The notes below the pieces were generated by a model, which saw only the letters and a program-made list of their open reading frames with translations, made no database searches and was not told the origin of the DNA. Positions 2 through 64,000 of a stretch of 64,000 nucleotides of DNA are shown piece by piece. A program made the position numbers and the translations under genes. Within the stretch, counting starts at the first letter, position 1. Every line of letters begins with the position of its first letter. Origin of the DNA: Enchytraeus crypticus (taxonomy: Eukaryota > Annelida > Clitellata > Enchytraeida > Enchytraeidae); contig CAJHZI010000547.1 in NCBI GenBank assembly GCA_905160935.1, forward strand, positions 2,667,001-2,731,000. Reading direction: 5' to 3'.

Positions 2-298
2 TATAGGATCGTCACAATTTATTTGAATTCCAGCAACAGGACCGACAGGAGCACTGGCCTCGACTTCACTACACCACTTAGACTTAGCAGCTTTGATGCA
101 CACAGGATCGATGAAAGAGACACTGCTTCTAAGTATTTCTTATTGAAGGCTCCGAGTAGAATTGTCTGATGACAGGAAGGCTGACGGAGACAGTTGAGAA
201 ATACAGCGAATTCCGAGACCACCGTTCCGAACTGGAAGACTTGCTTGCTGTCATTGAGAGTCTGACAAGTCTGCATTTAGCAGGCTTGTCTTGAGTTG
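2..298 (+). other. Coding-like fragment of unknown identity at window edge
   Basis: The sequence has higher GC than its surroundings. One plus frame is open from the window start to a TGA at 167-169 (contains SSFDAHRIDERDTASKYF). A second frame opens at an ATG overlapping that stop and runs to TGA near 296 (contains YSEFRDHRSELEDLLAVIES, helix-like). The two could be one gene end broken by a frameshift, or adjacent exon pieces. A minus-strand frame is also open here, so even the strand is uncertain. No family recognised. Confidence 0.25.
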
Positions 299-936
299 GC
301 TCCGATGAAGTTACAAAGAGAGATATCTTTAACTGCATACAATTTGAAAATTGGTCTCTACCAGAGTCTGATTATGTCAATATTATACCGTCTCGGGTAT
401 TATTTTACAAGAGTATGTTTTACAAAGATCGTTAAAATACATGGCATCGACAAAATTTCGCAAAAGATAATTTTTAATTATCATTTTGTCATTTTAGTGT
501 AACGTTGCACCTTTCGCATTTGCTGCTTCTGAACTGTTAAGAAATGGATATTATATTTGTCATGTTTTATATATACTGCCGTAAATGTTTGCTGTTTTTA
601 TGTTTCCTAAAGAAGTGGGCTTTACAATATTTCTAAGTTGAAACAATCAATAAATACTTATAATTTTTAGTTTTGGTTTAAGGGTACAAATAGGTCAAAT
701 AAAAAGTAGACATCTGTATTTGATATTCTTAGAAATCAGATTATTTTGCAACAAATATTACTGTAGAAATAGTAAAATGGTAAAAAATAAAAATTGTAAA
801 ATTACGCACAGTAGATCAAACGCACATGCGACTACTAGGGAGAAATCAATTTCTCAATGCAGGCGGGCAATGATTTCCCTAGATGATAGTTTATTGTGAG
901 TAGACAAAAACTACATGGGCGTCTGAATCAATTATA
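299..936. other. AT-rich spacer, nothing recognised
   Basis: No convincing exon, repeat family or splice-flanked frame is visible on either strand. Confidence 0.5.
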
Positions 937-939
937 AAC

Positions 940-1210
940 GTCTGAGACAATCCCTAAAATTTTATTCTTTTGAGCTTTTAATGACTGGAATTTACTTGAG
1001 ACAAAGATTAGGTATTATTGCGCCTATTTGAGTTTACACCAAATCACAAACATAGTGGAATCCCGACATTATTTAAGCTTTGGAATTACATCTAAGTTAA
1101 AGAAAGTATTAAAAGTGACGGAAATCTCAATAAGATGGGCGGTTATTCTGATGACGTCACTGTTGCTGAAATCAGGTCTCAGTCTCCTTCACTGGGATAA
1201 AATTATTTCA
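940..1210 (+). promoter_or_regulatory. Diverged copy of the lectin-cassette promoter pair, with a possible relic signal exon
   Basis: GTCTGAGACAATCCCT (940-955) matches element A of the lectin cassettes at 13 of 16 positions. GGTATTATTGCGCCTA (1011-1026) matches element B in the right order and spacing (71 bp). A hydrophobic open stretch (MTSLLLKSGLSLLHW, ATG near 1148) lies at the distance where cassettes have their signal peptide, but its expected donor reads GG|GATAAA. No lectin exon follows. Probably a dead cassette, or a chance match. Confidence 0.4.
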
Positions 1211-1324
1211 CTAATTTTATTGCATATCATTTCTTAATTCCTGCGTTTTGGTAGAAGTCTATAGGCCTATCTGAAATATCCTTTAAAAAGTTATTGTTAA
1301 TTAACAATATAATCTTCTACTTCT

Positions 1325-1715
1325 TCTTCTTCAGTGCACTGCTAAGTGGCAGGTTCAAGGTACATATGCATACTCAAGTCTGTTTTCTCGCTCCATAGAT
1401 CACTCTTTAGATCAACAAGTTAATCCCTTCACAAAGTCTATGCCTTATCCATTCCTTATGTATCCTATAGATTGGGAAAAATATGGCTTCTGATGTGGTT
1501 TCCCGTTGCCTTCCTCAGTTAGTTGGATTAATTTCCATTTAATCCTGGAGGAAAATATTTCATGGTGAGGTGGATCCCCTTTTGCCATCCTCATCTCCTG
1601 CCTATTGTCATCTCTTACGTACACGCCGCAGATTGTTAATTTTGCGGTTGCCTCATTCTGCAGTAGTCCAAACTCACCCGGGCACAAAACGGGGACCCGA
1701 GCACAACATGGGGAA
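1325..1715 (-). repeat. Repeat family B (SINE-like), copy 1
   Basis: About 390 bp, similar over most of its length to 8818-9182 and, in reverse, to 61385-61745. The long minus-strand ORF over it (1445-1912) is a by-product. Its 3' end (low coordinates) contains a 'CAGTGCACTGCTAAGTGGCAG' type motif in reverse, shared with LINE family A. Confidence 0.75.
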
Positions 1716-2509
1716 CAATTTAATACATGCCTTATACGATATACATGCACGCATTGCTCAAGATTTATTAAAATGTGCTGTGTTAAACTCAGACACCTGA
1801 CTGCTGTGAGTATGTATTTATTGTACATTATACGATTTATAATATCAATATTCTTAATAGTACAATAGTTCTTTAAAGGAACGATGGTTGGTAGACCTGC
1901 CGACATATACATATATATGAGAACACTCTAAACAACTCAGTATAATTTACATTTCTCTTGCATTTCTGCTGCTACAAAACAGTCATATTCGTTGATCTAC
2001 ATGTACATGTATATACTCTCTAGAACTAGAAAGAAGGTCTCCAGCTCTAACTAATTTATTCAGCATGAATACTTGATATTTTAACAGAGTGTCAAGTATA
2101 GTTTTATGAATATGTGAAAGTGGCATGCCATATTAATCTAAATTTTCAAATTACGCTATTCTTTAAATATAAATGTGTTCTAGTAGCTACATAACGTCTC
2201 AGTATTTAACTCAATGCGTAAATTGTAAATATAAAATGACCAATATTGTTGAGTCTAATGTTAGCTTACTCGTATTACTATGTGGCTGCTGAAGCAGATT
2301 TACTTAATATAATAATTGAAGGTTAAATCAGTCATCTACCTGATCTTAATTAATAAAACCTAAAGTTGGATGCTCTATAGCTACACAAAGTGTTAATTTT
2401 AGACAGCTGCTATTTGCATAAGCAGGCTTAATCGGTCAGCTAGCTCCTTGCAATACAAATCTATGGGCATGGACATTTCAGTTTCCAAAGTGAGTTGATC
2501 ATGAAAACT
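1716..2509. other. 3' flank of the guanylate cyclase gene
   Basis: AT-rich, presumably 3' UTR and downstream sequence on the minus strand. Possible minus-strand AATAAA signals lie near 2053-2058 and 1816. Nothing else is recognised. Confidence 0.4.
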
Positions 2510-36301: not shown

Positions 36302-36429
36302 TTTTGAGATGGTCCCTTTAATGCGCCAGCCTTAGACTTCAGTAACTGCTCATTGAACATAGTCTACAATAAATAAATTATTTAGAACATGATATTGTAT
36401 TCTTAGCGAAATATGTATTACTACGCCAA
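36302..36429 (+). promoter_or_regulatory. Cassette 1 promoter-like pair
   Basis: Element A TTTTGAGATGGTCCCT at 36302-36317. Element B TGTATTACTACGCCAA at 36414-36429. The signal-exon ATG is 245 bp after the start of A and 133 bp after the start of B. Confidence 0.7.
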
Positions 36430-36546
36430 TGCTATGATAGACATACAACATTATACACACGATCATTACTACTTTTTATTTTAATATACCCTCTAAACTT
36501 CATCATATTAATATCGACATTATTCCGGTCATTATTAATAGAAGAA

Positions 36547-64000
<27,454 letters not shown>

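Follow-up and report, generated by a model that had tools for sequence, protein, structure and literature searches.

A window of 64,000 nucleotides from Enchytraeus crypticus, by which we mean the whole stretch of DNA analysed, carries seven lectin cassettes ahead of one set of constant exons, confirming the arrangement described in a first-pass annotation. Judged from its sequence, it is quite probably a variable/constant receptor locus run by promoter choice, in which each lectin is spliced to a shared stalk. This reading is favoured because each head has its own promoter-like element and signal exon, the phases match, there is one constant set, a sister family is built one-to-one, and the heads are under purifying selection. 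A transcript would start at one chosen cassette promoter, the signal exon of that cassette would be spliced to its own lectin exon, and the lectin donor would join the shared phase-1 acceptor at 56924. The predicted product is a type I membrane receptor of ~388 residues, with one lectin head, a CUB-like/CCP-like stalk, a transmembrane (TM) helix and a tail of ~34 residues.

Lectin cassettes and constant exons

Each window cassette has a signal exon of its own, which starts at an ATG, encodes a hydrophobic segment and closes with a phase-1 G|GT donor. The first intron measures 584-961 bp (584-1731 bp over all 19 cassettes of the two arrays considered below), and the lectin exon behind it is open, bounded by AG and GT and of phase 1-1 (7/7; Table 1). 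The phases claimed earlier for the signal and lectin exons were seen in every one of the seven cassettes. Likewise, the seven donors that the first-pass annotation had placed at the ends of the lectin exons (37561 to 56722 in Table 1) all prove to be genuine phase-1 |GT sites, and the base directly after the AG of the shared exon is 56924. Signal exons were judged by their hydrophobic stretch and encode putative signal peptides; 14 of the 19 were recovered at the first thresholds and those of cassettes 1, 9, 12, 13 and 14 at relaxed ones (for cassette 1, a relaxed hydrophobicity threshold), while the weak signal-exon donor of cassette 14 (GTTTAA) was placed by likeness to the other cassettes. 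When spliced in silico, all seven single-lectin products of array 1 stay open. The last exon ends at 64002, two bases beyond the window.

Table 1. Positions of the array 1 features and of a relic cassette in the window
Feature	Position	Strand	Details
Relic of array-2 cassette 2: promoter-like element, signal exon, intron	295..2197	+	start codon and donor lost
Cassette 1 promoter-like element and signal exon	36302..36627	+	motif 1 36302-36316, motif 2 36414-36426, signal exon 36546-36627
Cassette 1 SUEL lectin exon	37247..37561	+	phase 1-1
Cassette 2 promoter-like element and signal exon	40605..40864	+	motifs at 40605, 40658; signal exon 40798-40864
Cassette 2 SUEL lectin exon	41739..42053	+	phase 1-1
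Cassette 3 promoter-like element and signal exon	44029..44306	+	motif 1 44029; motif 2 weak, ~44102; signal exon 44222-44306
Cassette 3 SUEL lectin exon	45268..45582	+	phase 1-1
Cassette 4 promoter-like element and signal exon	46686..46954	+	motifs at 46686, 46776; signal exon 46873-46954
Cassette 4 SUEL lectin exon	47750..48064	+	phase 1-1
Cassette 5 promoter-like element and signal exon	49048..49355	+	motifs at 49048, 49153; signal exon 49268-49355
Cassette 5 SUEL lectin exon	50271..50579	+	phase 1-1
Cassette 6 promoter-like element and signal exon	52755..53033	+	motifs at 52755, 52820; signal exon 52928-53033
Cassette 6 SUEL lectin exon	53861..54169	+	phase 1-1
Cassette 7 promoter-like element and signal exon	55547..55823	+	motifs at 55547, 55625; signal exon 55733-55823
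Cassette 7 SUEL lectin exon	56408..56722	+	phase 1-1
Shared constant exon 1, CUB-like	56924..57280	+	phase 1-1
Shared constant exon 2, cysteine-containing CCP-like module	59368..59520	+	phase 1-1
Shared constant exon 3, stalk	61955..62026	+	phase 1-1; donor GC in array 1, GT in array 2
Shared constant exon 4, transmembrane helix	62749..62830	+	phase 1-2
Shared constant exon 5, cytoplasmic tail	63897..64000	+	stop codon 64000-64002, across window end

We assign the heads to the SUEL/rhamnose-binding lectin domain family (PF02140) on profile evidence. Scanned alone, two window lectins matched positions 2-80 of the 80-position profile (E 1e-6 and 2.3e-6) at 28.3 and 29.4 bits, slightly below the Pfam SUEL cutoff of 31.4; the genome search placed five array 2 lectins, and three window lectins other than these two, above the PF02140 cutoff. 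An alignment of 20 lectins matched a solved rhamnose-binding lectin (3.6e-9) and latrophilin lectin domains, and among its matches were CSL2 and CSL3 (195 residues), which we take to have two domains each. YGR and DPC are the motif names of this family. In the 20 aligned lectins, eight cysteine columns and the PC are invariant, Y/F-G-R is present, and NPC mostly stands in place of DPC. The most variable columns are 25, 39, 42, 38, 81, 7, 41 and 6, the eight cysteines and the G-R of YGR being fixed. The heads may bind different glycans.

The shared exons were less readily named. A single constant exon set had been proposed, with CUB-like and sushi-like modules; the exons stand and are conserved in a second array, but the module names fared less well. 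The window CUB-like exon had no match to the CUB domain (PF00431), and one of four homologues reached 13.1 bits against a cutoff of 21.4 (E 0.12). No Pfam match to the Sushi/CCP domain was obtained with the window exon or one homologue. In a Pfam scan of a composite full receptor, SUEL was the sole domain at E<=1, with no cadherin, Ig or FNIII domains. The second half of the CUB-like exon lacks, in both arrays, cysteines that are present there in the copies on contig C405.

Several other features lie in the window. A reverse-transcriptase-like fragment (39308-39982; E 7e-6, under the Pfam cutoff) is found between cassettes 1 and 2, and a 16-base tandem repeat (46023-46242) between cassettes 3 and 4. 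In the intron 3' of the CUB-like exon, an ORF without a Pfam match, presumably mariner-like, lies at 57370-58333 between 193-base inverted arms. Adjoining the array, minus-strand exons at ~4751-25265 belong to a receptor guanylate cyclase, with cyclase and kinase-like matches and an ANF-receptor match that is weak and below cutoff. Scans of the whole window for tRNA and Rfam families returned no matches.

A second array, single-lectin relatives and a shared upstream element

The structure was first described within the window, where seven cassettes do lie; it continues outside, with 12 further cassettes that have their own constant set. Over 164 kb, a profile built from the seven window lectins detected 20 lectin exons, every one in plus orientation. 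Besides the 7 of the window they comprise 12 further downstream and a single diverged copy. The second array starts 2 kb past the end of array 1 and comprises twelve cassettes and one constant set, beyond which lies a one-lectin gene of the same family. Over both arrays, the lectin exons are open, keep AG/GT and are of phase 1-1 (19/19), each cassette has a private signal exon (19/19), and all 19 single-lectin in-silico products are open, at 383-394 aa. One set of CUB-like, CCP-like, stalk, TM and tail exons follows array 1 and another follows array 2.

We then set the arrays against the rest of the genome (524,188,772 bases in 802 contigs, the window being on C454). The mitochondrial gene order of this assembly, with every gene on the same strand, is the ground pattern of annelids. 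The constant CUB-like exon has 43 genome matches at E<=0.01. Lectins were paired with a match when they lay on the same strand, between one constant exon and the previous one, and within 35 kb. By this rule one lectin precedes 40 of the matches, none precedes one (a weak match on C560), and 7 and 12 precede the remaining two, the arrays. The pairing used 59 of 150 scored lectin matches, those near a CUB-like exon; the others lie on other contigs or, in four cases, far off on the same contigs, and the 34 candidates beyond the 150 scored leave room for a missed lectin. These 150 SUEL-lectin matches scored of 184 candidates genome-wide, some partial, amount to a large expansion in their own right. 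Four genes on C405 that were read in detail have one exon each for the lectin, CUB-like, CCP-like and TM parts, arranged in this order. No stalk or tail exon was detected in these four or in the downstream one-lectin gene, and the full constant set was seen only in the two arrays. The C405 genes are ordinary tandem genes, and the two arrays are the exception.

An unsupervised search of the 400 bp before the 19 start codons recovered motif 1, TTTTGAGACGRTCCC, in every cassette (19/19), 173-281 bp upstream of the start codon. Its EM score was 532; 12 control sets, sampled from this locus with very AT-rich stretches excluded, scored 229-254. Motif 2, TGTATTACTGCGC, lies 38-97 bp downstream of motif 1 and scored 386, compared with 187-208 in controls. 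It has <=2 mismatches in 15/19 cassettes, is weak in cassettes 3, 8, 10 and 16, and is looser before the one-to-one genes, with <=2 mismatches at 7/24 single-gene sites. The promoter-like pair that had been noticed in the window, TTTTGAGAYGRTCCC plus TGTATTRCTGCGC, is real and stands far above chance across the 19 cassettes. Four other sets of flanking sequence, taken downstream of the lectin donor, upstream of the lectin acceptor, downstream of the signal donor and from further upstream, gave scores at control level, leaving the motif pair as the sole shared non-coding element found in the flank sets searched.

Across the 524 Mb of the genome, the pattern TTTGAGAYGRTCCC is matched exactly at 53 sites and the reversed pattern at 8. 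It is exact in 17 of the 19 cassettes (7 in array 1, 10 in array 2), and the other two, both in array 2, have one mismatch. Forty-five of the 53 exact sites precede a family gene on its strand, namely the 17 cassettes and 28 single genes, one each; the other 8 are unassigned, a number equal to that of the reversed-pattern control. Exact motif 1 is absent before 13 of the 43 CUB-like exon matches. Because each cassette has what most single family genes have once, we infer that the motif pair is the promoter of each cassette. Three pairs of unassigned copies of the promoter-like 14-mer occur in inverted orientation 13.4-13.6 kb apart (C352:1314156/1327783, C373:606200/619625 and C535:920135/933510) and are perhaps the ends of a repeated element.

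The 40 single-lectin CUB-like exon matches, 28 of them with one exact upstream element, provide a rare built-in control. Similar alternative exons preceding a common exon would also be seen if the lectins were spliced in a mutually exclusive manner from one 5' promoter, as in insect Dscam1. That arrangement is very improbable here: signal exon and promoter-like element are private to each cassette, and no shared intronic docking or selector motif was found in the 400-bp stretches searched.

Selection, origin and the proposed joining of heads to the stalk

Among 171 head pairs, dS is saturated in 70 and has a median of 1.63 in the other 101. For these 101 pairs with computable dS, median dN/dS is 0.10 and the maximum 0.21, indicating that the heads are under purifying selection. 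Positive selection was considered and dropped, as no scorable pair exceeded 0.21, a measure in which saturation and pairwise averaging hide single sites. Assembly duplicates were ruled out, the closest head pair differing at 43% of synonymous sites. A family rich in tandem duplicates might be expected to leave decaying cassettes from which the 3' exons are gone, and one true relic is indeed present in the window (295-2197). It is 82-85% identical to its source, array-2 cassette 2, yet besides the losses given in Table 1 no lectin was found there; it is a natural picture of an unselected cassette. By contrast, all 19 array units are intact and under purifying selection, though far more diverged from one another. 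Between cassettes, tblastn at E<=1 found no CUB-like, CCP-like, stalk or tail match and no decayed constant exons, only three hydrophobic TM-like chance matches (E 0.29-0.77). We therefore give decay next to no credence.

When the 19 heads were placed in a tree with the downstream one-lectin gene and 29 other one-to-one genes (49 lectins in all), they formed one clade (support 96/90.6) within the one-to-one family, adjoining three C405 genes, which points to a single origin of the heads. They are not sorted by array, label changes being no fewer than in shuffles, and cross-array pairs include A1_2 with A2_6 (92/95) and A1_6 with A2_7 (87/73, modest). From this mixing it seems that several heads were already present when the array doubled. 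The starting point was probably a one-lectin gene of the C405 family, whose promoter-signal-lectin unit was copied repeatedly while the constant exons were not; the resulting multi-head array probably doubled later to yield arrays of 7 and 12. The single-lectin relatives illustrate how such an array could arise, by cassette duplication without constant exons and then by array doubling.

Between the two arrays, constant exons differ by dS 0.42 and dN 0.06, values partly blurred by a homogenised block of the CUB-like exon. The first ~148 bases of that exon (56924-57071) are 93-97% identical, including synonymous sites, in 22 other genes, with copies on four contigs (C405, C396, C319 and C454) and one gene sharing bases 30-148 only. 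In 11 pairs followed base by base, the similarity sets in right at the splice acceptor and does not extend into the intron. It ends at ~base 150 between array 1 and the C405/C396 genes and at ~base 210-240 between some single genes; in five further genes it is confined to about bases 73-148 (81-98%). Such a mosaic points to gene conversion or, alternatively, to an exonic signal under extreme constraint.

How the lectins might be joined to the stalk was judged from their donors and acceptors. A stop lies 1-25 codons beyond each of the seven window lectin donors, as might be expected if cassettes 1-6 were separate genes for short secreted lectins ending in their own introns, with cassette 7 alone joining the stalk. 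However, the donor lies two codons past the last cysteine in all 19 heads, as it does in the 29 one-to-one lectins examined, and it has stayed in place while synonymous sites have diverged almost to saturation; by eye, the read-through tails show no relation to one another. Separate genes are therefore improbable. Scored against a metazoan matrix, most lectin donors are weak, and 16/19 have T at +3. A first hand count (16/19 against 5/19; Fisher 8e-4, rows not independent) had raised weak donors as an array-specific splicing control. The idea was rejected, as the four nearest single genes have likewise weak donors, which are found in 10/29 single genes overall.

As the lectin exons have their own acceptors, later lectins could be included with no frame shift. 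If all downstream lectins were included, promoter k of 7 would give a nested receptor with 8-k lectin domains, and several points are consistent with this: the exons are phase 1-1 with own acceptors, a seven-lectin joining reads open (1014 aa), and tandem SUEL domains exist in rhamnose-binding lectins. Some inter-cassette exon mixing and extra Ig domains are also described for chelicerate sDscam (PMC4835542). By contrast, the one-to-one relatives have a single lectin (40/43 CUB-like exon matches), and a private signal exon and promoter-like element per unit would be superfluous for a change in domain number alone. Nested receptors are thus unlikely, and on the promoter-choice reading one lectin would be kept per mRNA.

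A bolder extension, which we regard as rather doubtful, is an independently evolved, protocadherin-style code of 19 promoters and glycan-binding heads for single-cell identity or immune recognition, in which occasional lectin-to-lectin joining yields 1-12 heads. Were it true, each cell would pick one or a few of the 19 promoters (plus some 40 one-to-one relatives), and two loci would give diversity in both specificity and valency.

Comparison with known receptor arrays

E. crypticus has served ecotoxicology as a model for two decades. It is presented as an innate-immunity model by its genome paper, whose main text names lectins once in general and holds no 'SUEL', 'isoform' or 'alternative splicing' (PMC8460440). 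Seven SUEL transcripts are reported for Olavius, with no array apparent in the parts of that paper covered (PMC5117596). No SUEL variable/constant array was found among the titles and opening lines of abstracts in an open-access library. The lectin exons match PF02140 at full length and also the solved lectin domains of rhamnose-binding lectins and latrophilins. Most known rhamnose-binding lectins are secreted proteins with tandem domains, and latrophilins belong to the GPCRs; we know of neither as a shared-stalk array.

Clustered protocadherins and UGT1 had been offered as analogies for the variable/constant plan. The parts of that reading testable on DNA speak for it, but the analogy is better moved to chelicerate sDscam-alpha, because the cassettes here are of two exons each and contain an internal acceptor. 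Clustered protocadherins resemble the lectin array in having a promoter (here a promoter-like element) per variable unit, shared constant exons and a conserved element, which in protocadherins is a conserved promoter element. Their ectodomain is held by one large variable exon without an acceptor, whereas here variation is confined to the head, stalk and TM are common to all heads, and an acceptor precedes the head exon; membership is excluded, with no cadherin repeats in the receptor scan. The UGT1A locus encodes an enzyme from tandem alternative single first exons, without an acceptor, joined to shared 3' exons. The tandem variable units before shared 3' exons are alike, but the lectin array has a lectin head and two exons per cassette.

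In the sDscam-alpha genes, as described by Yue et al. (2016, PMC4835542), one constant set is preceded by tandem cassettes of two exons, a leader exon and an exon for one domain, and every cassette has a promoter of its own. According to the same account, their frame permits exon mixing, 249 of 264 junctions in RNA join neighbouring exons of one cassette, and unusual splicing is estimated at 10-40% of isoforms in most genes (PMC4835542). Two-exon cassettes before one constant set and a mixable frame are thus common to both systems. They differ in that the variable head is an Ig domain in chelicerates and a SUEL lectin in an annelid here, and in that sDscam is backed by RNA whereas the lectin array is known from DNA alone. 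A rich array of predicted promoter elements is described there, compared with one family-specific element in 19/19 cassettes here. Membership in sDscam is excluded, as no Ig or FNIII domains appeared in the lectin receptor scan. We regard chelicerate sDscam with two-exon 5' cassettes as the closest precedent and, as far as our searches reach, the lectin array as a known kind of system in a new protein family and phylum. To our knowledge, only a handful of families have promoter-choice receptor arrays with a shared constant part, the clear examples being clustered protocadherins and sDscam; an annelid array with lectin heads would add another independent invention.
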